Assembly (NCBI GenBank): GCA_907165065.1
Contig: OU015528.1
Span: 25,626,015-25,690,014, forward strand
DNA length: 64,000 nt
From: Caprimulgus europaeus
Taxonomy: Eukaryota; Chordata; Aves; Caprimulgiformes; Caprimulgidae
Direction of reading: 5' to 3'
A program made the position numbers and the translations under genes. Positions 274-49,680 of this stretch are shown here, one piece after another (the first letter of the stretch is position 1; each line of letters starts with the position of its first letter). Below the pieces are notes generated by a model. That model made no database searches and was not told the origin of the DNA. It was given only the letters and a program-made list of their open reading frames with translations.

Positions 274-352
274 TGAAGGAAAAGGAGGATGCACATGCTG
301 ATCCAGAAATACAACCTATGAAGGAAGATGATGGAACATTTGGTGAATACAG
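274..352 (+). CDS. NRCAM: NRCAM penultimate constitutive coding exon (cytoplasmic tail)
   Basis: Read with a leading G from the previous exon, this 79-nt exon encodes V-KEKEDAHADPEIQP followed by MKEDDGTFGEY. This is the acidic part of the NrCAM cytoplasmic tail just after the membrane-proximal segment. It is flanked by an AG at 272-273 and a GTGAGC donor at 353-358. The exon ends on two bases of a codon (AG), so the next exon supplies the third base. NrCAM is a neuronal immunoglobulin/fibronectin-III adhesion receptor of the L1 family that acts at the axon initial segment, nodes of Ranvier and growth cones. The tail ends in Tyr, which becomes the first residue of a YRSL sorting signal when the microexon at 9476 is used and of other junctions when it is not. 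The ectodomain and transmembrane exons lie left of the window. Confidence 0.95.
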
Positions 353-2068
353 GTGAGCAGCTAAAGTGGTTTGTCATGTTCAATGCTCATATCATACATG
401 TACTGTATATAATATCACACTTATTAACTCAAAACTAACTTTTTTTTCCATGTTGACAAATATTCCGTATCCAGTGTTGTATAGAACTGTAGATTGCATT
501 TCAACCTCACCATTAGAAAAAAAAATAAAAAAATCCAAGCGTAGAATAAGCTTTTCACTAATGCAAGGTGAAATCCAGATTCAAACACAATTGAGGAATC
601 TTTATTTATAGACCCATCTTTGAGATAGCTAAAATATGAGATACAGTGTCCTTTCAGTTCGGGCACATTTAGCATTATGGGTTTTGAAAATATTTTTCTA
701 ATTGAAGCCTACTGAACACAATATTGTGTTACACTGACTGGAAAACAAATGCATTTAAAATGGCTGCCAGTACTAACACCTAATCCAATAACAAAGAAGT
801 GATGTTATACACAGAGGTGAAGGTATATCCTACAAGAAAAAACAAATCTCCCTTCCATGTATTTCAGTACAAGATACATAGCAAGCAGCTTCAAAGTATG
901 CAACACAGCTCTTATTCCTGAACTCTCTTCTTTTATTGTAAATTTAGTCTAGCTGAATCTCCTGGCATCATGAAAAGCATGCCTTGGCAAGTCTGTCCAT
1001 ATGGCAATTATGTGTATAAGTTATTAAAGAAGCAGCATTTTATTTGTTGTTTTTGATTAGTACAGGAAATTATGCTGTTATTTTCTAAATATATCAATAC
1101 CATTATATTTTACATGCGTGTTGTAATAGATTTTACAGTGTCAAAAGCATTGTAAAAGCCCTTTATTATTTTGAAGATGTGACATTTACAAACGTACATA
1201 GAAAAATCTTTTTTCTCAAGAAGGATCCACGCTGTGGCCATGGCTTCTTCATATAAGGGAGATGTGCATCTTCATCTGACTGGAATAGATTTACAGTTCT
1301 CAATGCCAAAGACAAGTTTCTGTTTGTTCTTCCTCAATTTTTTTAAAAAATACAATACTTTGTTCTTAGATTAATGAGTTCAGAATAGTATTTATTTACA
1401 GCAGTAAGTGCCTATGGATTAATTAAATTCAACTGGTAAAGGGAAGTGTGAAGCAATGTTTGGAAGCAGATGTAAATAAGTACTGTGTAAGTTTTCCTAG
1501 TCAGTCCAGTTTGCGTTCTCCTTTATATCACTCCTCTGTTTAAGATACTTGGAAGTTTCAGCAGCAGAAACTGACCTTCCTACAGAATTGTACAAATTAT
1601 ATGACCTCATTACATGTTTTCTCAGGCCTAGAGTAAGACTATTCAAGTCTGCTTTCGTGTATGACCTGTAGCAAGATTTGAATTTATGTCTCCATATTTA
1701 AGTGACTTGAGTTAATCTATAGCATCATCTAGTGCTTTATTAAATTATTTTATAATGCATTTATCCACCTCATGTCTGGTGAATATGGACAGATGCATGC
1801 CATGCTTTCAGACTTGTTCACATGAAAGAGCTCATCCTATTTACCATGCAAAAACTCCTTTCTAAAATGTATTTCTGTGTAATTAGTCTATATTGGGCTT
1901 TCCTCTTTTTTCCTTAGAGACAGGGCAGCAGCAGCAACCAGTCAGATTACAGAAGATACCTTGGCACTCTATCTGCAGCCCAGCATCACTGCAGTCACTC
2001 AGTTCCCAGTTTCTGCCTCATGTAGCACTGGTCATGATGCAGTGTTTCTTTGAGGAAAAAGGGTATAG
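353..2068 (+). other. NRCAM: NRCAM intron, no gene seen
   Basis: AT-rich intronic DNA without a supportable gene. A polypyrimidine tract and AG at 1916-1917 resemble a splice acceptor. The frame behind it stays open from 1919 to a TGA at 2051-2053 and is the same frame as the Gag-like open frame downstream. The two are separated only by the stops at 2051 and 2066 (TAG). This may be decayed upstream coding sequence of the same element, or chance. Confidence 0.6.
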
Positions 2069-2082
2069 GGTTTCCCTTGGGG

Positions 2083-2099
2083 AAAAAAAAAAAAAAAAA
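2083..2099 (+). repeat. poly-A run upstream of the Gag-like ORF
   Basis: A run of 17 A residues just 5' of the Gag-like open frame. It lies inside the open frame (open from 2069) but before the first ATG at 2156, and before the acceptor at 2150-2151. Length changes here would not affect a protein started at 2156 or one spliced at 2152. Confidence 0.9.
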
Positions 2100-2151
2100 T
2101 CTTTGAAAGATCTAGGAATTCGAGTATTTTGAACTTTTTTCATCACTTCAG

Positions 2152-3991
2152 GTCCATGTCTGCTTGGACAGGAAAGAAACTGGACAAGGAAAAGAAAAGA
2201 AAAGGTAGCTGTGCCAATTCTCCTGAAGCAGACCCTGTCTTTACCAAAGCAAAGTCTGTGAGATCTGACAGATCCAGCTTCTTCAGAAGGTCAGGGGATC
2301 AATACTCCAGCACCAGATCAGAGACCTCCTACACCAGGAGGAGGGCTAGGCAATCTTCAGAGCTTACAAGGGTTAGTTCTGTCTCTGCTTCCCTCTGCCG
2401 AGAGGAAAAGAGATCAGACGAATGGAAGCACAGGCATGGCTCTAGACATCATGCTTCTGAGCAACAGGTAATGGGGTCGGAGGAGGGCTCAGGTTCTCAG
2501 GCAGGACAGCAGTCCCCTTTCCAGCAACCCCTCAGCTGCAACTCAGTTCATGACTCACTGGCAAGGCAGCCTCCTTCTCTCCAGCACTGGTTCAGCCAGA
2601 CCCCAGACTACAGCTCAGATTCAGAAGACACTCAGAGCTCCTACCACAGGAAGGTAAGACCTACTACTACTCACTTCTCTGAATCTGAAAAGAATTCATT
2701 AATGAAATCTGTCATTTTGCCTGAGCTAGCTACTGTCTTAAAGGATGCTTTGACAGCAGCCAGACAAAGTATAACTTCTGTGGCACAGGCTAGGTCCCAT
2801 TCAGTGAAACATCCCAGGGTACCAATTACAGAAGTTCCAGTGGTTCCTCTAAAAGCAACTGGGAGCAGTTCCCAAACTTTTGAGTCTGACCATATGGACA
2901 GTTTAAAAGATCAAACAGCTCCTGGAAAGGAGAAATTAGAGGCTGACAAGGCCTCGGAGGTTGAGTCAGTCCCTGAAGATAGCAAGGTGTCATCTGAATC
3001 CCCTACAGAAGACCAAGAAGGATCAGATTTTCTGCGCAAGTTTGACATGGAGAATCAGAATTATCTGTTCAAGCACATAAAGAAAGTGTTAATGCTAAAA
3101 TCTTCCAAATATGAATGTGCTTCAGAAGAACTTCCTATCGCCTCTGAAGAAGGCAAGGTAGAAAATGCACTTCCTATCCATTCTGCAGTGGAAGATCTTG
3201 TGTGTAGGATTTGGGGTAATCCTGAGGCAAAGCATGAAGCCCCAGCAGTCCTACGTAAGCTATATCCTCTTCCAGTAGATAAAGCTGTTTTGTGGGGGAC
3301 CTTGCCTCAGGTAGACAGGGCGTTGGTTACTACTGATTCTGTACTATCAGTGTATGCTAATATGGATGTTCTCCCTAAAGATCCTACTGATAGAAAGGTT
3401 GAGGAAGCAATTAAAAGATCTTTCAAGCTAGTTGCAGCCCAGCTTGGAGTATCTATCTATTGCACTTACGCTTCTAGAGCATTACTAATATGGTTGGAGG
3501 AAGACCGAGCCCGATTAAAAAAGAAATGGGTCCCATCTGGTACCATGCAGAAGAAGCGCAGGCTATGTAAAGATGTAGCTAATTTTATCCATGATGCAGC
3601 AGAGGATTCTCTTAGACTCACCATTAAAAATATCGCATGCCTCACTGTAGCCTGGAGAGCTATATGGCTACGTCCTTGGACCTCAGAACTAGATCTAAAA
3701 TCTAAACTGCTGTCTTTACCATACACAGGTGGAAAGCTATTTGGTGAATCCTTGGTCCAGATCATGAAAGATTTCTCAAAACACAAACACTCCTTACGTC
3801 AGCTTAAAAAACAGAGCTCTGTTGGAAGCTCTTCATTTTGTTATCCTCACAAGTGTCTGAGCTCCTTTCGTTCTCCTCCCAAGTTTAAAGGAGGGAAGGG
3901 AAAGTATAAGGTCTCACAATCATTTCATGCCAAGTATGAAAGGACATCTCACTTTCAGAGAGACACCAGACCATCAAGAGGAACTTTCTGA
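2152..3991 (+). CDS. intact DIRS-type Gag / LAP2-alpha-like ORF, candidate alternative NRCAM terminal exon
   Basis: The frame is open from 2069 to a TGA at 3989-3991. The first ATG at 2156 gives 611 residues. An AG at 2150-2151 behind a T-rich tract could act as a splice acceptor, and splicing from the exon ending at 352 would be in frame (AG+G, Arg). Residues 1 to about 300 are Ser/Arg/Glu-rich and low in complexity, with a basic KEKKRK patch near residue 10. Residues about 335-555 look like the conserved core of DIRS retrotransposon Gag and the LAP2-alpha-specific domain: an HSAVEDLVCRIWGNP helix, the LPKDPTDRKVEEAIKRSF segment, WLEEDRARL, FIHDAAEDSLRL, then WRAIWLRPW and LPYTGGKLFGE. The C-terminus is basic and Gly/Arg/Ser-rich. 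The family call rests on remembered family patterns, not a search. No reverse transcriptase, RNase H or tyrosine recombinase is seen downstream, so it is not a complete element. It may be a free-standing gene, a domesticated exon, or a young relic that has not yet decayed. Confidence 0.75.
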
Positions 3992-6900
3992 GAACATAGA
4001 CTTGCTTTCTCCTTTCTCAGGACCTGGGAAGAGGGAGAGACTTGGAAATTTATACTGAATAGACTTCAGTATTTCTGGACCAGTAAGCCCAATTCTTAGA
4101 AAATTAGTTGTTTCAAAATAAGATTTAAATTACTGAATTACTTAAATCTTAATGACTAATTAAGATCTTCTAGAGAAGTCATAGCTCTCAATTTTAGGGG
4201 AGGTTTTTGTCACATTCACTTTCTAGGCTTCCTAGTATTCTTGGGATGTCTTGGACTTGTTTGACATTTTGCACTCTTCAGCTTCATCTAAGACCATACT
4301 TTCTGCAGAACCTGCCAACATTGGATTTTCCTGCCCTATTGATCTAACAAAGGAAGCAATGCTTTAGGAAACACAGATGTTTCAGGAACCACAGAATGAC
4401 CAGGTACACTATGTTCCTGTGACTGGAAGCATACCTGAACCTTTACATAATAAGGGAAGACAGTGCCTCTGTAGCAAACATTGCACTACAATCCCAGTGG
4501 TTTCCTGGGTTGTAGAAGACTCAGATAATAAACTGTGGACAGTCAATGCTTGCACCATGGAACTTCAAGAAATACAATTAGTACCACAAGTATATGTTTA
4601 TTTCAATTTAAATTAAAGAACATCTAGAGCTCCTGTTCAGGTCAGTTTAGGTGTATAAATCAGCCTAAATTTCCATCTGAGGTCTTAATTTCAAGATAAA
4701 TTAAGAGTCAAAATTGTCTTAATTTCAAGAGGAATTAAGAAGTTATGGCATCTACAGACCTGTGGTTTCATGGGTAGGGAGAGACTGCAAGCATACATTT
4801 CTAGTTAACTTCACAGGAAGTTAGGAAGTCTAGTGTCTCATTGCAGTCTGTCATATGTTCTTACGAAGATCAAACAGGACAAGGCAACTACAGTAGTAGG
4901 ACTGCTAGTGTGGTTATGCAGGACATTTGCACATTTTCTTGAATTATTTTGCCTCTTTTCTTCAACATTTTGACAAACATATTTTTTCCTAGAAATTCTT
5001 GGATATGCTATGAGAGATTTTATGGAAATGGTTGATGGACGGTTTGAAGATTGCTAGATAATATATTAATCTTCCTTCTTGTTCTGGATTGATTATGATG
5101 AAGATATAGTTTGTAACTACAACAGTATTTTTTTCTCTTGTAAATATTCAAGTTTTATTGCTGCCTAGGTGTGTTTCCAGGGGGACCTAGCCATGATTTG
5201 TGCCTCAGCACAAATTCTAAGCTTGGTCCCTTCTAACACAAGAGCTGATATTAGTGGACTACCTGAGGAATTATTGTCTCTGAATAGTCCAACTGGATTT
5301 GACAGTGGTCTTATTGTGTCCTCATTTAGGCATACATGGGTTTTTTTTGATGGTTCTTATTTTAATTCTGGAACATTTGTGTCACTACTTTTTAAATCAG
5401 TGCTTTGATTTCTCTTTGTATAATTTTTCACCAGAAATAGCAAAGGTGGAAAGTTTGATTGATTTTTTCCCAAGCAGATTTTTCTTTAAAATTTTCACAA
5501 GGAATGAGTCAAGTTCTTTGATTTACAACAATCTTTTCAACCCTTTGCCATTTAAAGGCAGAGCTTAATCTCTCAGTTTTTCTGGCTTCTGCCAGGATTG
5601 AAGATTGAGTATGACAGAGTTGCTAAAGCAAAACTACTCAGAAAACTAATACAGAGGTGCTTATATCTCAGTTAGGTAAGAAATAGTAAAATGTTTTGAA
5701 GTCTGGATTGATACAGGTGCATAGGTGTATAGGGAAAGCATTTTATCAGTTTAGAAGCGTGAGCAGAAACTTGTTAGGTATTGGGGCAGAGGTTCTCCTG
5801 GAGTGTGCAAGGAAGCCATAGTGTAAGGTACTTCTGTGGCTTTACATGACTGCTTATACTTAAACATTTCTGGGTTGTTGACATGAAGGCAGAGAAAAAG
5901 TACTTTAGTGACAACAGTTTTCATCACTGGAGTTCTCTTTCTGTGTCCAATGGCCCTGAATACTTTACATATTTTGTTTGATTTATGTTTCCTTTCATTT
6001 GACAGTTGGGTTATAAGGAAAAGTAGTGTATTGCTAACCATATGTTGAGTCTTTTTGCATGTCCATGAATGTGGCAAAGTTAAGTGGGAACTAGTTGCCT
6101 GCTGGACTGCAGAGGCATCGTAAAACTGAGTTCCCCATTCTGACTGGTTGCTGCATGTACCCATATCTAAGGAAGAAAAATTGAAAAGTTGAAAGAAGAA
6201 AGGAGATTTCAAGGTACATATTTCTGTCATTAACGGATGAGCTTGTAAAATGGAAGTACTTTCTTTTAAAAAAATAAGTTTGTACTTTGGACTTACACGT
6301 TATTGTCACTTCTGTAACTCTTCTATCTCTTAATCACTAGCTGCAAGTTTGATACGTGTTTTATTAAGCTGAGAAGAAAAAGAAACATGTATTCATATAT
6401 TAGTAATCGTTCATGAGAAATATTTAAATCATGCTTTTGGAGTATGCTTTAATATTAAATCCTGTTCTTTACTGAAAGGGAAAAAATAAAAATGTGGTAC
6501 ATATCAGTACTTACCAAAATGACTGGTACCTATCAGTCTTCATTGAGAAACTTTGATCCTTAAAAAGTAACTAGTGTGGAATCTATAAAACAACAAATAC
6601 TAAAAGTATCACTAAACTTAACTTGCATGTCTGTCTGATCTATATGTAGAATTCATACCCATTTTCACCTCTGGTTCCCTCCCGGTACTTGTTGTCTTAC
6701 TATTAATTGTATGCACTGCATACATAACACTTCTAAAAACTTCTTCAGATTTCCACTATATTTTTATTCAACCCAATTTATTTTTTATTTCACAATATTA
6801 CACTAGGTAAGTATAAAAGTCAGCAAGTAAAACCACAAATAAAAACTAAAAGAAATTATGATCTATCCTGGTTGTATTTTGGAATAGTTTTATGAACAAT

Positions 6901-9475
6901 CATCAGCAAGATGAGCACATCTTGCAGATACTGTATCAAAATGTATGGCTTTAACATATTTTTGCAATACAGCTTAAAGTGTTCTATAGCTCTTTGGGCA
7001 TCCATATTCATAATGCAATTCAGCAGCTTTTACAGTTTGCTTCTCAGCAGCGAACAGATAATACATTCATTTCCCCAGAGCACCAGGGTCCCTTCTCTGT
7101 TTTGCACTCTGTCCAAAACACTGATGTCTTCACTTTTATTCTCCCTCTCCTGCTTGTTTTTTCCTTCTCTTTCTTCCTTGATTTCTTTATTTCTATGCAA
7201 AACAATGTATTCATCTAATACAAAAGTCATAATCCAGTATGATAAAGAATAAATGGTACCATGGCATGTTTCCATTTCCTGAACACGGAGTGGAAAGTAC
7301 TTTGGGTAACCCCACTTGGTTTTCCACTATGAGTCTTGGCATAACCTCTTTATGGACTTACACAGTGCAAAAAAGGGAGGGATCCCCACAATCAGATTTG
7401 ATTTTTGCATCTGCTTTAACTGTAATCTCACACCAGCACCCACCTCTGTGCAGGTACCATCCTGGGTAGATCTGCAGTTTTGTTTGTTTGTTTTTAATTA
7501 TGCAGAACAGTAAAATCTGCATCCTTACTAAAATACAGAAAAATCACAGACACGAGGCAACCAACTGTGTAAGTACGTCTTCATTGTTTGGCTTATAAAT
7601 AAACTTTTTATTGGATTAAACACAAAAATGTGCATATTTTTAATACAGTGATGATTTATAATTTATTTACTGTATATTTACTGTATATTCCAGCCTAGTG
7701 AATTACATTGGATAGAGTCACACTGTAGAATATTTGTACATTGTTTCCTGACCAGTTGGAATATGGTACAAATGCAATTTTAATTTATTTTCATTCCTAC
7801 ATATTACAATGTAAGCAATTACGAAGTTATTAATCTAAAATTAAACAGCAAAATTTATGCACGATGTTCTTTACTAAATGGTATTACCCAGAAAGCATTA
7901 ACTACCACAGGTCATTCATTTGGAGTAGGACCAGTTACTACTTCAAAGTGAGGATCCGGTCTTTGTTTGGCTTGAATAACCTGCTTTAATGACTCTAATG
8001 CCCTCTAATAAGGGGAGTGGAGAAACTACATGGTGTGTGATTTTTAAATACTCAGTTCTATCTTCAACCTTTTAAATACAGAGTCCTTGCAAAGTGAACT
8101 TTCTTCAGTAAAATATTTGTGATCTGCTTGTGTTTGCAGTTTTATAAACATTTGCATTTTGCTTGACATTTAGGAGTGGCATTCTTTTAAATGTTACTAG
8201 CCTGGATGTTGACACTATCAGTGAGCACAGAAGATCAATTATATGATATTTATCCCTATGCCATGTACACATCAATAACTAAAACCAAGGTCAAGACTGA
8301 TACAGCCAAGTTTAGCGTTTTTGCCTTTGTATATTTTAAAGATGAAGATTTTCTATGTGTTATAAAATAGATATTTCTAGTACTTTTTCTTGTGTATGCA
8401 TAGAAGGATAAAATCTCTGGTATGCTTTTTGTGTAAGTATATGCATATTAGAGGCATATTTCTTTTAGAATGTGATAACTTAAGAGTTTTCAAAAGCCAA
8501 AAAAGGTAATGAGATGAAGAGAAGCAGCTTGATGAAAAATTGGTTGTAATAGTTTTCTAGCAATAATGAAATTTTTCGCAACAGGGCATTTGTTAGGTAA
8601 TGATATAATCTATGTGACCTTGCATATGCTGTCTATGTATGATTTCTCTGGGCGTCCAAAGACAATAAAAGAAAAAAAAAAAAGAAGAAAATACATTGTT
8701 GGAAGAACTAAGATATTTGGGTTTAGGAAGCAGACGGTTAAAATATTTTGCTGAATATATTTTTGATATTGTAAAATATATTTTCATTATTTGATATTCT
8801 ATACATGTTTCTTTATATTTTCCATAAGCTGGGAGTCCTTAAATAAAAAAAGAAGAATCTCTTACTCTTTTGTACCCTATATGCAGTTAAAGTCACATGT
8901 TCTGTTTAAGACAAGGTAAATAATTGTACCCAAAAGTGCAGCTGACAATACTGGTTTTGAATTTGAAATGCTTTGGAGCTGCTGCTGAAGTCTTCATTTT
9001 GAAACAGAAGTCCAGTGTAAAGGATTCTGAAAAGTGCCCAACTACATCTATTTCATGAAGTATGAGCCTACCACAGCCGCAAATTTATTTGGAGATGCTG
9101 ATGGTGCTGCAGCTTTTCTGCTGACAGGGGAAAGACCACAGTACTTTGCGACAGGGATCTCTCCTCCCCACCTTTCTTTCCTTTCCTTTTTCTGTTGTCC
9201 TCCAAACCACTATCATGATTGTCAGAACATGTTATGGATTAGGATAAAGAGGTTGATCTGATAAGTAATGAAAAAAGACTAAGCATGCTCTTAACTGCTC
9301 AACTCTAGCTACTGTAAGTAAATCGTTGCTTCACTTGTATACAGTAAATATTATAGCAATTTTAAGAACAATTTATTATTGATAAAATACTGATCACTAT
9401 CAGGATATGGACTTTGCTTTTCTTCTTAGGCTATTTTCATTTGTTTCTTCTGCACCCTTTTAATGGAATATGTAG
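3992..9475 (+). other. NRCAM: NRCAM intron, no further gene seen
   Basis: AT-rich sequence with only short, unconvincing open frames. Downstream of the Gag-like ORF an AATAAA at 4527-4532 and an ATTAAA near 4612 could serve as poly(A) signals for a transcript ending in that ORF. Around 4680-4742 there is a short imperfect duplication of a CTTAATTTCAAGA-type unit. I see no remnant of the reverse transcriptase or recombinase genes expected in a full DIRS element. Confidence 0.6.
4527..4532 (+). promoter_or_regulatory. AATAAA, possible poly(A) signal for the Gag-like exon
   Basis: A canonical hexamer about 535 nt after the Gag-like stop codon. It would be needed if that ORF is used as an alternative terminal exon or as an independent gene. 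The hexamer is common in AT-rich intron DNA, so by itself it is weak evidence. Confidence 0.3.
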
Positions 9476-9487
9476 GTCTCTTGAAAG
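9476..9487 (+). CDS. NRCAM: NRCAM RSLE microexon (12 nt)
   Basis: The 12-nt sequence GTCTCTTGAAAG is bounded by an AG at 9474-9475 and a consensus donor GTAAGG at 9488-9493. Read after the AG left by the exon ending at 352, it encodes Arg-Ser-Leu-Glu and leaves AG for the next exon's T, so the frame is unchanged with or without it. It creates Y-R-S-L, a YxxPhi signal. The L1CAM family is known to carry a neuron-specific RSLE mini-exon at this position that promotes AP-2/clathrin endocytosis and axonal sorting. A pyrimidine-rich stretch with a TTCTGC motif lies upstream (about 9421-9460), as is typical of neuronal microexons that depend on SRRM4. The exon is far too short for ORF callers. Position, phase and both splice sites agree, so I consider it real, though inclusion in RNA is not shown here. 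Confidence 0.88.
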
Positions 9488-10084
9488 GTAAGGTTGAAAA
9501 TTGCAAGTCTGGCCTGCATTATGTAACAAATTATTTGAAATGCAGCACTTTTATTTTCTTTATACTATTAAAGAAAATCAGTATCTTTCATTTAACCAAG
9601 TTCATTCTTCATTCATGTTCAAGGAGTCAAAGAAATTAAGAAGTTTAACAGACTAACTTCACAGCACATCATAAGCTTGTTACTTTGGAGAATATATATA
9701 TATATTTTTTTAATAGCTTTACAACCCACTTTTTAATGCTTGCAGTTGCATCTAAATTGCTTCCAAGCCAAGGGCACAGGTTCTTATCATTGAAAACTCA
9801 TGCACGGGGAAAAAAAAAACAACAAAACAAAAAACCAAAAAAACCCCAAAACAAAACCACAAACTCCCCTCCTTCCACTGAAGACATTCTCTGTTTAAAC
9901 CATTCCTACACCATGTATTCATGTCAACTGCTGCATCATAATGATTTGTCTCTACAATGTGATGTGGGTTTACTAAAGGATTATAGGGCTGCACACATGC
10001 TTTTGATAAACTCTGCATGCATGGCTGATTTTGTCTTAATATATTATACATCAGTTAATTCCTTTTGTTTGTTTGTACCTCCAG
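9488..10084 (+). other. NRCAM: NRCAM last intron segment
   Basis: Intron between the microexon and the terminal exon. It contains a short (TA)n stretch near 9693-9704 and an A-rich tract with CAAAACAAAA-like units at about 9809-9860. It ends with a TTTGTTTGTTTGTACCTCCAG acceptor region at 10064-10084. No gene is seen. Confidence 0.75.
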
Positions 10085-10322
10085 TGATGCAGAGGACCAT
10101 AAACCTCTAAAAAAAGGAAGCCGGACACCTTCAGACAGAACTGTGAAAAAAGAAGACAGTGATGATAGTTTAGTTGACTATGGAGAAGGTGTAAATGGTC
10201 AGTTCAATGAGGATGGCTCCTTTATTGGACAGTATAGTGGTAAAAAAGAGAAAGAACCTGTAGAAGGAAATGAAAGCTCTGAGGCTCCTTCTCCTGTAAA
10301 TGCCATGAATTCATTTGTGTAA
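10085..10322 (+). CDS. NRCAM: NRCAM terminal coding exon (ankyrin-binding tail, stop)
   Basis: The first T completes Ser after AG from the preceding exon. The frame then runs [19 protein letters not shown] to the C-terminus PVNAMNSFV and a TAA at 10320-10322. The segment [14 protein letters not shown] contains the FIGQY motif (10221-10235), the ankyrin-G docking site shared by L1CAM, NrCAM, neurofascin and CHL1. Phosphorylation of its Tyr is known to release ankyrin and to recruit doublecortin in this family. The last three residues, Ser-Phe-Val, fit a class I PDZ ligand, and NrCAM is known to bind SAP-family PDZ scaffolds. The sequence is almost identical to mammalian NrCAM as I remember it, including [11 protein letters not shown], and this separates it from neurofascin and L1CAM. 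Transcripts that end in the Gag-like exon at 2152 would lack this exon, and so lack ankyrin binding. Confidence 0.97.
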
Positions 10323-40650: not shown

Positions 40651-42158
40651 TCTCCACCGACAAGGCCACCCCTCAGGAATCCCCAACCCAAGAGACCAGT
40701 GAGAGAGTCTGGAAAAAGGAAGACTTTCCCTTGGTCCATGAGTATTGGGTTAGAGATTGACTATGCAACCTTTACACCCACAAGTCTATGGACCCTGATG
40801 GGATGCACCCACATGTGCTGAGGGAGCTGGCTGATGTCATTGCTAGGCCACTCTAGGTCATCTTTGAGAGGTCATGGCAATCAGGAGAGGTTCCTGAAGA
40901 CTGGAAGAAGGTAAATGTCACCCCTGTCTTCAAGAAGGGTGAGCAGGAGGACCCAGGGAAATACAGGCAAGTCAACCTTACCTCAATCCCTGGAAAGGTA
41001 ATGGAACAGCACATCCTGGAGGCCATCTCTAAGCATGTGAGAGACAAGAGGGTCATCAGGGGTAGTCAGCATGGATTCACCAAAGGGAAATCATGCTTAA
41101 CTAACCTGATTGCCTTCTATGACAGGACAACTGGCTGGATAGACAAGGAGAGGGCAGTGGATGTTGTATACTTGGACTTGAGCAAGGCTTTGATAGTCTC
41201 CCATAACATCCTCATTGTCAAACTCAAGAAGCCTGGACTTGATGACTGGGAGGTGAGGTGGATTGAGAACTGGCTGAATGGAACAGTTCAGAGGGTTGTC
41301 ACTGGTGGTGTGGAATCAAGTTGGAGGCCTGTATCTAGTGGTGTCCCCCATGGGTCACTACTGGGTCTAGTGTTGTTAAACCTATTCATCAGTGACTTAG
41401 ATGAAGGAACAGAGTGCCTCCTCAGCAAATTTGCTGATGTTACTAAACTGGGAGGAGAGTCAGATGTGCCAAACAGCTGCGCTGCCATTCAGAGGGACCT
41501 CGATAGGCTGGAGAGACAGGCAGAGAGGAACCTCATGAGGTTCAACAAGAGAAAGTGCAGGGTCCTGCATATGGGAAGGATTAACCCCAGGCACCAGTAC
41601 AGGTTGGGGGCTGACCTCCCGGAAAGCAGCCCTGCAGAGAAGGACCTGGGAGTGCTGGTGGACAACAAGTTAGATATGAGCCAACAGTGTGATCTTGTGG
41701 CCAGGAAGGCTCACGGTATCCTGGGTTGTATTAGAAAGAGTGTTGCCAGCAGGTCAAGAGAGGTTCTCCTCCCACTCTACTCAGCCCTGGTGAGGCCCCG
41801 CCTGGAGTATTGTGTCCACTTCTGAGCTTCCCAGTACAGGGAGGACACAGAACTCCTGGAGTCTGTCCATCGAAGGGCGATTAAGATGATTAAAGGACGG
41901 GAGCATCTTTCATATGAGGAAAGGCTGAGGGAGCTGGGCCTGTTCAGCCTGGAGAAAAGATGGCTCAGAGGGGATCTGATTAATGTTTATAAATACCTAA
42001 AGACAGAGTGTCTAGAGGATGGGGCCAGACTCTTCTCATTGGCACCCAACAAGAGGACAAGAGGCAATGGGCATAAACTGCAGCATAGGAAGTTCCACTT
42101 TGTGGGACTAGATTCAAGGCGAAGCTGAGATCTGTTTACTGAGAGGAACAGCTAATTT
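40651..42158 (+). pseudogene. CR1 LINE ORF2 (endonuclease end to reverse transcriptase), broken
   Basis: The sense strand reads as CR1 ORF2 from just before the reverse transcriptase (TPQESPTQE, KEDFPLV) through [96 protein letters not shown] and [15 protein letters not shown] to [13 protein letters not shown]. It is dead: a frameshift or TGA near 40758, a TAG at 40854-40856 and a TGA at 41823-41825 interrupt it. The catalytic FADD is FADV, and the AFD palm motif is altered by a 3-nt loss (KALIVSH). Homology stops near 42158, so the last ORF2 residues and the 3' UTR are missing. That is unusual, because CR1 copies are normally truncated at the 5' end. A 275-codon frame (41001-41825) survives by chance. 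Confidence 0.93.
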
Positions 42159-43428: not shown

Positions 43429-45600
43429 AGGCCAGTGGTTGCTATTCCTCCATCCGTGCTGCAGGATGCAGTTGTGCCTCTTTCATCCTTATGGTCAGAT
43501 CCTAAATGACTTGTGCCTCTTTCCAGGGAGCAAATTCCTCACAGGAATCAAATACCCAGGGATGTAGGTATGTGTATGAGCTACATATATAAACTGATCG
43601 CAGGAAGAGAGTGTTATGGAATAAGGGGCAGCTAATGATTACAAACGAAGAGGGTGCTGAATGCACTCTATTGCTGCTTTTTGCACGTTTTCTGTTCCTG
43701 TTTTGCTTTGCCAACTCCCTGGCTCTAGTGAAGGATGTTTGAATCAAGCAAAGGGAGAGAGAAGACAGGGATGTTCTGTGCAGTGCAGAGACACCCACTG
43801 GTATAACACAGCAAAAAATTACCCTGCCTAAGAATGTGTATGACAGCCATCTTAACTTCTGGCAATGAAATCAGAAACTGAAATTACTGAACATTAGGGA
43901 ATAACATCCTTCACAAAGTATCCTAAATGTTAAATACATTGTGGCAGTATATAGTTGTCTGTGCTATACATCTGAGGGTACATGCTGAGCAGCCTAGCAC
44001 TCCCTTCAGCAAATCATCCTGAAGTCGACTTTTGTGTTTTAGTGCTTCTAGCTGCAAAATGCAGCCTGAGGCAGTTTTGGAACTGAACACCATTCAGAGT
44101 AGCCCTGAGATTGCTCTAAACTCTGCCAGGGGCTGAAATGGTTTTATGGTGCTCACTGTCAGAAAACAGTTAAGGTGTCCAAAAACTGCAGCTGAGATGA
44201 AGTCTGTGCCAGAGTTCCAAACCTCACTAATATTTTAAGTGCCTTCTGTTCCATTACTACCTACTGTTTGCCAACATCTATGATCTAACCTCTTTGCCCT
44301 AATGTGCTCTGCTATTCAGTCTTTATTTCCCATTTTTTTTCTGCACCCTTGGTACCACTCAGTTTTCTCTCTGGCATGCAACCTCTATCCCTGTTGCTTT
44401 GACTCATCTTCTGCATGTTTGTGTACACATACAATACACCATATTGGATTAAGACACGGGAATTAAAGACCCAAGCCTAAATCTCCAACTCTGGAATGAT
44501 TAAATGAGAATCTGCTAGGGGTTTTGTTTTGTTTTGTCTTGTTTTTTTCATGAATTATCTTTTTTTATCCTTGAACAACAAGCTTCTGACCCATATGGTT
44601 GCAGGAGTATGACCTCATTATAATTGACATAACGGTATCTGCTGCAATCTGCAGACTGTAGAGCTATAAAGTCCGTGGCATTTTGTGTCCTAGAGGAATG
44701 AGTTCAAATCCTTTCAGACACGCAAGAACTATCCAAGACGACAGCTACAAGTCAAGAAGTCCTGACTGGCTTCCTCCTGCCCTTCCTTACTTCAAGGTGC
44801 TGAGAAAATGTACTTCAGATGCCTCTCTACTGCAAAGACCTGATTTCTCATCAGGGGAAATGTTTGTGCTTTGGTGTTATTTCCAACATAAAGGATTGAT
44901 CTTGGAGCAACAAGGGGTCTCAGTGTGTCAGGCTTAGGACCCTGGACTTCCTGAAGTTTTCCTCTCTCTGGTCCTTACTGCTGTGCAGGTGGCATAACCT
45001 AGCCAAGTGTTATTTGTGCTCTGCCAACTAGTGACTGTGTGTTAGCTGTCACTTTCTGTAAATATAAAGCGTCATGGTTTCAGCCCCTGCTCCCCCCCAA
45101 AGTTGTGTTTCACATACAGTGGGAACTCATATCTCGTAGTTTTGCAGGTTCCATATTCCATCCCTCCTAAGTCCTTCCTGCAACAGCTGTCACAAATTTG
45201 GTAGCTCACGACTCTTCAGTGGATCCTTTCTCCACTCTGTCCCTGTTTGCTTTCCTCCAAGCCGGTACGCAGCAAGCCCCATACTTATTTTGGGACAGGG
45301 CACCTTCCTCCCTGTGCGTTCACACAGCCCTTTTTTTTTTTTTTCCTTCTGGGAATTTTGATTTCTGTAGCAATTTACAAAGTCGAAAATACCACAGGAC
45401 TTGGGCAAAAGGGAGAGGTAGAGGCTTTAAAAAAAAATATCTAGCCTTTGTGGTAATGAAAAAGAATGAAGAAAAAATGATCCTGCATAGAAAATGCAAA
45501 CTCCAGAAAATAAACTGAAGCTTAAGAAAAATCCTGTCATTTCAAAAAATCCTGTCATTTCAAAATTATTCTTCTAACTTGGCCCCAGCGTTACTGGACA
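43429..45600. other. intergenic DNA, no gene seen
   Basis: Mixed-composition sequence leading into the CpG island. A GTTTTGTTTTGTTTTGT simple repeat is at about 44521-44545, a T run at about 45331-45345, and an 18-bp tandem duplication at about 45529-45563. No convincing coding exon. Confidence 0.6.
45529..45563. repeat. two-copy tandem repeat, about 18 bp
   Basis: The unit AAAATCCTGTCATTTCA occurs twice in a row. A local duplication near the left edge of the CpG island. Confidence 0.85.
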
Positions 45601-46103
45601 CATCTCTGGAGGATCTCGAGCATCACGCCTCTTGTGAGTGTCTCTGTGCGTGTCTGCGTGTGGCCGGGGGTGCTGCACATGCTCACTGGACAGCGCGCAG
45701 TGCTGCTCCGGTGTCCGGGACAGGCGCGGATGAAGGATGCTGAAACCCTCCGCGTCCCCGACACTTCTCACCCCCGCCCTTCCTGGGCTGAAGGGGCGAC
45801 CGTCCCGCTGCCCCTCACCCCGCTCCCCCACCCCCCATGGCCGAGCACCCACCGCAGCCGGGGCTGCCGGCTGCTGCGCCTCTTATCCCCGCTCCTCACC
45901 AGGCTCGCCGCCTCCCCGCGCTCCGCTCTCACCATTCTGCTCCCTTCCCACTCCCCGCAGCTTTCCCCGCTCTCTCCGCAGCGCTCTGCCCTCACCTGTC
46001 CCCACCCACCTCCCCCTACCCCGCTCTCCCTACCCCGCTCTCCCGCACTTCACCCCTCACCGCTCCCCTCTCGCCACCGCGTTCGCTCACGCGCGCGCAC
46101 GAG

Positions 46104-46123
46104 TGACATCACCCCTGACCAAT
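46104..46123. promoter_or_regulatory. CRE-like and CCAAT boxes
   Basis: TGACATCA (one base from TGACGTCA) at 46104-46111 and CCAAT at 46119-46123 lie 8 nt apart, in the middle of the CpG island. The spacing suits cooperative CREB/ATF and NF-Y binding and puts a likely transcription start 60-110 nt to the right. Confidence 0.6.
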
Positions 46124-46189
46124 CAGCCGCCGCCGCTCCCCTCGCCCCGCTCGGCCCCGGCGGCCCCGCACGCGGCGGGCAGGGGGGGC

Positions 46190-46317
46190 GCGCGGCCGGC
46201 TGTCAGGCGGGCGCGCGGGCGGGGGCCGTTCCGAGCCAAGTCGAGCCGCCGCAGGTGCGCGCAGCCGGGGCGGGACGCGGCGGGGTGACAGCCCGGCAGT
46301 GCGGCGGCACCGCGCAG
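46190..46317 (+). other. possible non-coding first exon with two candidate splice donors
   Basis: GC-rich sequence ends in CAG|GTGCGC (GT at 46254) and CAG|GTAGGG (GT at 46318). The second is the better donor match. No ATG-started frame here looks coding. The left edge is a guess from the CCAAT position. Confidence 0.35.
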
Positions 46318-47050
46318 GTAGGGCACGGCTCGCTTCTGAGCGGGTGCGCAGCGGGGTCCCGCTTTAGGGACGCGAGTAAGAGCCGCCGCGGCGCTGCCTC
46401 CTGTAAGGGGAGAGGGCGGCCCCCGGCAGCGGGTGGTCCCGGGGAGGGGGCGCCGCCGCGGGGAGTCACCTCTCCCGGTGCGGCTGGAGGAGCTGGGGTA
46501 GGGGTGGGATGGGGTAGGGGTGGGGTGGGGTGAGGTGGCAGGCAGGCAGGCAGGCAGCTGCGGCCCCGCGGCTGGGCGGTGGGAGAGACCCGAGCTCCCC
46601 CGCGGTGCGCCGATGCGGCGTTGGCCCGCGGACGGTACCTGGGCCCGGGCGGCGGGCCCCGATGCTGAGAGGAGGCCGCGGACGGCGGCCGTTCCGCGGC
46701 GCGGCGCGGGGAGCAGGGGCGGGGGGAGCCGCCCTTTCCCTAGGATTACGAAAGTGGGGCGCTGCGCCTTCCCTGGGTAGCGCTCCGGCGGACGCCGTCC
46801 GTGGCGACCGCGGGTTTGGCGGGGGAGAGGTGGGCTGCCGCGCGTCCCTGCGGGGGCTGCCGCGCGCCTCGCCGGAGGGGCCGGGGGTGCCGCCAGGGAA
46901 CCCATTTCTCCGCGTCGTCTCTGGTTCTTCCTGGCGCACGTACGGGTTTTGGCAGCGTGTCCGCGCTGTGCTCTGGCAGCTCATCCTTTCAGCACCGCCG
47001 CGGCCGCACGGGCTGCCCTTCAGCGCAGTCTGTGCGCCCAGAGGCAGCCT

Positions 47051-49680
47051 CGCTCCCTCGCGTTCACTTGTTTGCGTTTTGGGTGTATTTAAAAGGTATT
47101 TTTGTCACTGCACCTTCTTGCAGTAAAACTATGAAGGTTCCACTTTGTTTTCCCTTTGTAAAATGCTAATTATGTTGCTTTTCTGTGTCACTTTTCCGTA
47201 AATGTCGGTAATTCAGGCAGACTGTAGTAACACCTGCTGGTGAGAACAGAAATACCGCTTGCGGACATTGCCGTTGCTGAGCTCTGCTGAAAATCACCTG
47301 AAGGGGCTGAGCACGCCCGTGATGCTCTCTCTGAGCTGCAGACTGAGTGAGGGGCTCTTTAGGAATTCCATCTGCTCAATGAAGCGCTATTTCATTCTGT
47401 TTATAAAACCCACTGGAGATTATCTATGCAGTTAATCAATTATGCCCCATTTAGTAATGAAAATAAACCATGACCTGTGAGCTGAGAATGTTTTCAATGA
47501 TTATTATATTAAGGCACAGGAAAAAATAATATTAAGAGGGTTCTTTAAGGTTTAAGAAAAAAAAAACAAACAACATTGTGGGATAAAATAAACCATACTG
47601 ATGTATACAACTTAGGTAAAAAAAATGCCTAAAAATGCAGCCACCTGTGCAGAGATGACTGTAACAAAGGAGGTGTTAACAAATATACTTTACTTACTAT
47701 TAATCTTTTGTATAAAATTACTTGTAAAGCAGTAAAAACAATGAACACAGGACTCGAAATTGCATAAGAACAGGAGAAAGAATTCTCAATTTTTCTCCTC
47801 TACCATTAGTAAATTTTAAGTGTCTTTCTTGCATTACAAATATTGTACAAATCCCGATGAAAGGATGATCTTTGGCCCATATTGTACAAATAATAATAAT
47901 TGACTAAAATGTCTTTAGCAAAAAAACTTCCTTTAATGTTGTGGGAGCCTGTTGGAAATATGAAGCTTTTGTTTGTTTACATTTGAATGTGTATTATCAG
48001 CATTAGATGCTTAGTTCTTTTATTTTTTTTCGTAATGGTTTACATGGCATTAAAATATATCTTATCCACCCCTAAATTTTGCAAAAAGTAAAAATAAGAA
48101 GCTAAGCAAAACACTTCTGTCCTTGTCCATGTTTATATTATCTACAATGCTGTTGTAAACCAACAAGAGATTTGCAATTTTACTTCTGACAGACACCAAA
48201 AAGTAATGCAACCTCCACACAGCTGTATGATAATGCAAGAACTTACTTGATTTCATAGAATCTTAAATCAAGTATCATAAACACCTTCTACAGGTTATGG
48301 AACAAAGAACTAAGTGCCTTTCTGAGCATGTCTGATACAGTCTTAACTGCATGATCACATGCTGTCTTTTTTCTACAGGAACCTCATTCAGTGCATGGGA
48401 TGGATGGAGCTCACTTAACAGAGTTCAGTATTTTTCACTGATCACTGTGTGACCTCATGGTTTATTTACTTCACATTACTCAACTCTGCATTGAAGGCAG
48501 AACTGATAACATCTGTATGGGCTTTGCTAAAGTGCTCGGCCTTACATGATCAGAATTCCTCACAAATATTTATTAGTTTAGCGAACACTACCTAAGGTGG
48601 GACAAGACTTTTACAGATGGTGAATAGAGGCACAGAGTGGGTTGGGTGAAAAGTATTCACTCATTTTTAGTGTCCAGTTTGAAATTTCTACAATTCTTGT
48701 AAATCTGTATCTGCAGAGTGGATGGCAAAAAGAGGAATTCACAGTTAAAGCCTTTGTGGCATATTACAGAGCCAATGTCCCTTTTTCTTCCTGCAAGCTC
48801 CACCTCATTCTCTGTACATATTCCTATTCTTCAGTAGGTAAGACAAGAGTCCTACCTGCATTAGGTTATGTATCATCTTCTGTGCATGTTCATCCTGTGC
48901 ACTGAATGGGGCAAGGTAACTTTGAAGAAGCAGCGCATATTTATTTACATATTATATAACAATGTACACACTCAAGGGAAGTTAATTATGGTTGCACAGA
49001 CATATATATGCACAGTCATTTTACAACTATAGAGTGGTTGATTTAGTAACCTTAATAATATTTTTCTCATGTTGTTTGTGGGGTAAAATGTGTATACATG
49101 CCCCATATACTTTCTTAAAACCTAGAAAATTAAACTTAATGGAATTAAAAAAAACCCAAACAACCCAAATGAACCATAAGAAAACACAGAAAATTTTCAA
49201 CTCAAAGTAAAATTCTTCTTTTGTTACTCTATTGGACCCATAATGGTTACCAGCAGGATTGGAAAAGTTGAATCCTTTGCAAAAGCTCTTGAACTTCTAG
49301 CTTTATGGGTGATAGCATTGTGAGAGCGCAGTCCCTTTTGTACACACCAGTGATAAAGCCGGATGGCATAGTTTGTAATGCATTTGCATGGCTACTATTG
49401 GTAGTGGACAAGTGATGAAAGACTGGAGTCCTTTCTGTTCTAGGCTTTAGACAGAATGTATCAAGGTGGATGAAGGCTCTTTTGCCAGCATTCTGCAAGC
49501 ACAGCCCTTTTAGCTTCAGCCTTTATACACATATACTAATGACAGCCTCCTTATCCTCCTGTAGCCAGTCTCGGTCTTCATTTTTTAGGTGCCTGGGCTT
49601 GACCATTCCAATTTTGTCTTCAGTTTCTTGTCTCAGCCAGTCCTGTCCCTCCTTGCTTTTTGCCTTCCATTTGCTTTTCT
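47051..49680. other. intron-like or intergenic DNA, no gene seen
   Basis: Composition returns abruptly to AT-rich. Short direct repeat ATATTGTACAAAT near 47843 and 47880. No coding exon recognised. If the CpG island promoter fires to the right, this is the start of a long first intron. Confidence 0.55.

Follow-up and report, generated by a model that had tools for sequence, protein, structure and literature searches.

A DIRS-type Gag frame in the last NRCAM intron of birds as a probable alternative last exon

A long intact reading frame for a DIRS-type Gag lies in sense orientation in the last intron of NRCAM (353-10084) in Caprimulgus, within a stretch of 64,000 nucleotides analysed as a whole (the window). 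Judging from the sequence and from the gene models of other birds, this frame is probably used in birds as an alternative last exon that would give a chimeric NrCAM, with a probability of about 0.85. The NRCAM-Gag transcript and protein are presumably made and of consequence. The best reading is a third exonisation of a LAP2alpha-type Gag, after those of mammalian TMPO and ZNF451, this time in birds, where the host is a cell-surface receptor.

The Gag frame in the last NRCAM intron

From stop to stop, the frame extends over 640 codons on the plus strand (2069-3991) and is closed by TGA at 3989-3991, while 20 first-order Markov shuffles of the 64-kb window reached at most 121-238 stop-free codons each. 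The Gag frame comprises 612 codons past the junction codon, or 611 when counted from the Met at 2156. LAP2alpha (PF11560) is the sole Pfam family that exceeds its cut-off in this frame (E=4.7e-12, 46.3 bits, cut-off 25), and the structure of human LAP2alpha (2v0x) matches it with E=3.3e-10, or 2.1e-19 when a profile of 56 sequences is used. ORF1 proteins of about 650 residues in Xenopus DIRS-like elements bear the same domain (passages of PMC9210276). In mammals, the LAP2alpha domains carried by TMPO and ZNF451 are described as derivatives of DIRS-like Gag genes (passages of PMC4495291). The features of the locus are collected in Table 1.

Table 1. Features of the NRCAM-Gag locus, in window positions
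Feature	Position	Strand	Basis
NRCAM penultimate coding exon, encoding ..KEKEDAHADPEIQPMKEDDGTFGEY plus AG; donor AG/gtgagc	274..352	+	sequence
Left inverted terminal repeat of DIRS-like relic	1906..1946	+	inverted-repeat alignment
Possible cassette exon; acceptor ttttttccttag/AGAC (1917/1918) inside left inverted terminal repeat, end GG/gtatag	1918..2062	+	limits inferred from protein and sequence
Pyrimidine tract and splice acceptor ttttttcatcacttcag/GTCC, cut 2151/2152	2135..2151	+	matches NRCAM-Gag model junction
Gag-coding alternative terminal exon (probable), coding part, 612 codons and stop	2152..3991	+	ORF, domain, models
Basic patch KKLDKEKKRK, bipartite-NLS-like, putative NLS	2174..2203	+	motif pattern alone
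LAP2alpha domain (PF11560), including WLRPW and LPYTGGKLFGE	3158..3772	+	Pfam and profile matches
AATAAA, first candidate poly(A) signal past Gag stop	4527..4532	+	motif, candidate
ATTAAA, further candidate poly(A) signal	4612-4617	+	motif, candidate
Right inverted terminal repeat of DIRS-like relic	6139..6178	+	inverted-repeat alignment
Canonical last NRCAM coding exon, missing from Gag isoforms	10085..10322	+	sequence

Base 2152 completes the Arg codon of NRCAM (AG/G), which puts the acceptor in phase with the NRCAM donor. The canonical last exon, which has the same intron phase as the Gag exon, carries FIGQY at 10221-10235, the C-terminal NSFV and a TAA at 10320. Comparison of a bird NRCAM-Gag protein (P0109) with the genome gave 33 matches, 19 of which are located on the contig and strand of the window, where they span about 52 kb and follow the protein from start to end; the remaining 14 are on other contigs with lower identity. 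Stops occur in 6 of the 19, mostly, in our reading, where a match overruns the edge of an exon, and a few stretches of P0109 have no genome match of their own, including the short penultimate exon. The original prediction had claimed an intact frame of more than 600 codons, a likeness to DIRS-type Gag and LAP2alpha, and a location in the last NRCAM intron. The first two claims are borne out by the shuffles and by the Pfam and 2v0x matches, and the third by the exons on both sides of the frame together with the upstream exons in their order.

Proteins that join NRCAM and Gag were sought with a length-padded query, since the length limits of the first search excluded fusions. Gag was matched by 212 proteins of NRCAM-like length, of which 120 were listed. 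These 120, all named neuronal cell adhesion molecule (1132-1856 residues), come from 39 bird species among cranes, gulls, owls, raptors, ibis, cormorants, parrots, cuckoo, passerines and geese, and are predicted gene models, often with many isoforms per species. DDGTFGEYR of the penultimate NRCAM exon is found in every listed model and FIGQY or FIGEY in none. The one model scanned for domains contains Ig, FN3, the first part of Bravo_FIGEY and LAP2alpha. The junction is direct in 118 of the listed models: 117 read GTFGEYR/SM, exactly as predicted from the acceptor in the window, and one, from Cuculus, reads R/SI. In the other two, from Acridotheres, a cassette adds 45 residues (135 nt) in frame; the corresponding cassette in the Caprimulgus window would have 145 nt and run into a stop. 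The location in NRCAM is shown for the window bird and the 39 model species, with no palaeognath among them, and elsewhere rests on the gene tree described below.

The same frame might instead be a stand-alone intronic gene producing a soluble Gag from the Met at 2156, either under a separate promoter or through a pre-mRNA that keeps the intron or is polyadenylated early, in which case the NRCAM fusions would be minor forms or by-products of annotation. A gull entry (P0001, LOC134510183) is indeed annotated as a separate stand-alone gene of 611 residues, and M[SP]AWTGK begins all 13 full-length unfused entries (P0001-P0013), although the ORF caller requires a Met. The basic NLS-like patch follows just after this Met, and the upstream region 1887-2010 looks conserved, by eye and in translation, with the fowl-like P0013. 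That region, however, is the inverted terminal repeat with the second acceptor, used for the cassette in the two Acridotheres models, and all 120 listed long models join NRCAM in frame. In the Cuculus canorus model (P0182), moreover, the Gag start Met is replaced by Ile and the next Met is at residue 108, while the frame is otherwise open; this weakens a start at 2156 and argues that the fused frame is the unit kept, on the evidence of one model whose fellow cluster members lie outside the comparison. A stand-alone gene is accordingly unlikely, and the alternative last exon is preferred.

Remains of a DIRS-like element

The inverted terminal repeats on both sides of the Gag align over 42 columns with a perfect core of 16 nt and a local score of 43, against a mean of 29.3 and a maximum of 34 in 60 shuffles of the flanks. 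A weak continuation inward to about 2008 and 6085 is possible (matched or beaten by 9 of 500 shuffles), and outward extension is no better than chance (195 of 500). The span that they delimit, 4.27 kb, is in keeping with the 4146-6224 bp given for DIRS-like families in Xenopus (passages of PMC9210276). A six-frame Pfam search of 3990-6241 at E<=10, in which HMMER filters drop most weak matches, gave no family; reverse transcriptase, RNase H and tyrosine recombinase were therefore all undetected there. Nor did any candidate for the internal complementary region of DIRS elements beat shuffles (73 of 200 and 123 of 200 reach the values). The ORF, the domain, the left flank and the 3' body each have one match in the 1.18-Gb genome among the best candidates scored.

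The Gag is derived from a DIRS-like element. Because of the inverted terminal repeats, the undetected reverse transcriptase and recombinase and the single genome matches, the locus looks like one old, gutted DIRS-like copy with an intact Gag. The bird locus shares with the Xenopus elements the length and domain of Gag, the terminal repeats and the span (passages of PMC9210276), but differs from DIRS-like elements in its undetected reverse transcriptase, RNase H and recombinase, in the lack of a detectable internal complementary region and in the one copy found. It is a relic, not a DIRS element. An active or recent element was rejected on the single genome match and the undetected reverse transcriptase and recombinase. 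It had been stated beforehand that these two genes would be unrecognisable beside Gag, which agrees with the Pfam search, and that many near-identical copies would speak for a young element; one copy was found among the best candidates scored.

Two other open stretches of the window were noted. The first, of 322 codons at 40857-41825, resembles by eye a fragment of CR1 reverse transcriptase. At 45526-47126, several overlapping frames on both strands encode an abundance of Ala, Gly, Pro and Arg, which would suit a GC-rich CpG island.

Descent and conservation in birds

A protein query, with 8000 candidates scored and hits restricted to lengths 0.55-1.75 times that of the query, found 92 relatives, 78 of which were assigned to named birds among both palaeognaths and neognaths. 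All but one of these 78 records are partial, starting near residue 156 and covering the C-terminal 75% only, and 13 of the 90 records P0001-P0090 are full-length. The nearest relatives come from Nyctiprogne (95% identity) and Chordeiles (94%), in each case across 75% of the sequence, and group with Caprimulgus in a gene tree built on 456 C-terminal columns. In this tree, judged among the named sequences, all 13 bird groups with at least two named members are monophyletic (support 73-100), and Palaeognathae, Galloanserae, Neoaves and Neognathae are recovered. Descent therefore looks vertical, and the tree points to a single copy passed on from the ancestor of extant birds. It does not favour several separate insertions within birds.

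Selection was assessed at the protein level on 91 bird sequences including the window, after pruning of two distant relatives (P0091 and P0092). The tree carries 2437 amino-acid changes (variance/mean 4.1), and of the 456 sites 69 never change. Codon simulations under neutrality, with roughly the observed number of changes and 12 runs per rate model, left 3±1 invariant sites (maximum 6) under uniform rates, 12±4 (maximum 19) under gamma shape 2 and 29±5 (maximum 39) under gamma shape 1. Identity to the window in blocks of 30 residues is 94-96% at residues 1-90, where only 13 sequences contribute, 96% at 181-210 and 90-92% at 331-360, 421-450, 481-510 and 571-600, and it falls to 74-77% at 241-300, 451-480 and 541-570. 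The C-terminal end is RGTF in 78 of 93 sequences, and GTF in all 120 listed NRCAM-Gag models. A point against the chimeric reading is that the Gag part evolves faster than the NRCAM part, by a factor of 4.35 across 27 models that each represent a different one of the 39 species. Between Anser and Strix, Gag differs by 0.134, compared with a neutral expectation of 0.32-0.42 at assumed neutral divergences of 0.2-0.3. If these divergences hold, the ratio of about 0.26-0.38, a dN/dS-like estimate and not a dN/dS, is close to the 0.38 published for TMPO LAP2alpha (passages of PMC4495291).

These data bear on a neutral explanation, in which a decaying transposon ORF has stayed open by luck and has been chained to NRCAM by annotation software. 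The Gag product is known here from predicted models, and only intact frames enter protein databases in the first place, so that such frames are over-represented and losses would be missed. On the other hand, 135-150 stop mutations on average were met per neutral simulation, yet the frame is open in representatives of many orders; invariant sites number 69 against 3-29, Anser and Strix differ by far less than the neutral expectation under the assumed divergences, and no second genome copy that could renew the frame was found among the best candidates scored. Luck of this kind is very improbable. The protein-level tests suggest that Gag has been kept under purifying selection. Domestication of the DIRS Gag, as originally predicted, is well supported by the single genome match, the palaeognath and neognath relatives, the tree and the excess of invariant sites. 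Occurrence in one species only, named beforehand as evidence against it, is contradicted by the 78 named birds, and relatives of the ORF, sought in other birds, were found in palaeognaths and neognaths, with the NRCAM location in the models of 39 species.

Identity to bird Gag is 46% for P0091, over 94% of the bird protein, and 45% for P0092, over 62%; the two are 80% identical to each other. P0091 scores 65 bits for LAP2alpha, against 42-49 bits in the bird proteins scanned. As a query it recovered 92 proteins, namely P0091, P0092 and 90 from birds, and among the 7999 candidates of limited length that were scored, none was a DIRS element closer to P0091. Block-wise conservation between P0091/P0092 and birds is correlated (Spearman 0.60, p=0.005, 20 blocks), as it would also be within a transposon family. 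These two proteins are possibly orthologues from a different lineage of sauropsids.

Possible working and known counterparts

The proposed history begins with a DIRS-like retrotransposon that would have inserted in sense orientation into the last NRCAM intron, most likely earlier than the common ancestor of extant birds. The Gag frame of this element would then have become an alternative last exon by means of the in-phase acceptor just upstream of the start codon and a candidate poly(A) signal further down. The predicted product retains the Ig/FN3 ectodomain, the transmembrane helix and the juxtamembrane tail unchanged, followed by 612 Gag residues in place of FIGQY, the ankyrin motif, and the SFV tail. 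FIGQY of NrCAM binds ankyrin B (passages of PMC12681835), and its loss should therefore uncouple NrCAM from ankyrin.

Within the preferred reading of an alternative last exon, the exon might simply switch off the FIGQY/SFV tail by ankyrin uncoupling and early polyadenylation, with the Gag sequence itself mattering little. The absence of FIGQY from all 120 listed models and the role of FIGQY as the ankyrin B site (passages of PMC12681835) are consistent with such a switch, which does not need the block conservation along the whole protein or the mostly like endings; the chance of this sub-case is small.

A working that employs Gag is tentatively favoured, at somewhat less than even odds. The core of LAP2alpha is helical and self-associating, and the bird core is likely so by analogy, which would make of the ankyrin-uncoupled NrCAM a clustering receptor. 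NrCAM is cut by furin, ADAM10 and gamma-secretase. Such cleavage could free the tail, which is basic at its N-terminus, as a soluble LAP2alpha-like protein competent for the nucleus. For most such proteins, the intracellular domain released by these cuts is rapidly degraded (passages of PMC6460357). An NLS-like patch on a transmembrane protein is odd unless the protein is cleaved. A chromatin or lamina role may be suggested; a role at the surface or as a released tail is at least as likely.

A bolder version is doubtful: the exon would pre-date birds, being present in the sauropsid line of P0091 and P0092, and the LAP2alpha-like Gag freed by ADAM10 and gamma-secretase would enter the nucleus as a signalling tail. 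If so, birds, which are without TMPO-LAP2alpha, would have evolved a surface-triggered counterpart from the same kind of transposon.

The nearest counterpart of the bird exon is the DIRS1-like Gag exon of TMPO LAP2alpha, which occurs in mammals only (passages of PMC4495291). Both have the same domain (PF11560, 2v0x) and are single large alternative 3' exons replacing the usual tail of the host (passages of PMC4495291). The TMPO host is nuclear and loses its membrane anchor through the Gag exon, whereas NRCAM keeps its transmembrane helix and its Gag would be cytoplasmic; the Gag residues number 506 in TMPO LAP2alpha and 612 in bird NRCAM, and the terminal repeats are still visible at the latter. 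ZNF451-L2a, with a dN/dS of 0.16 (passages of PMC4495291), is likewise a LAP2alpha-type Gag independently exonised as an alternative last exon, but in a nuclear zinc-finger host of eutherians and with 497 residues.

In passages of PMC5753468, PMC9210276 and PMC7786948, only two DIRS-derived coding exons are named, both in mammalian nuclear proteins, and birds are said to lack DIRS elements. As the original prediction supposed of NRCAM, no description of a bird DIRS Gag gene or of an NRCAM-LAP2alpha chimera was found in the titles, abstracts and passages retrieved from the open-licence PMC literature, where the only paper found with both names, a heart-disease review, mentions NRCAM and LAP2alpha once each (PMC12326461). 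The sequence is already public as database models, and its biology seems undescribed. NrCAM, an axon-guidance receptor, would thus gain an unstudied cytoplasmic tail. A third independent capture, by a neuronal adhesion receptor and kept across bird orders, would show in DIRS Gag a tendency to be taken up as an alternative last exon, for which the acceptor and poly(A) signal that come along with it may be the reason.
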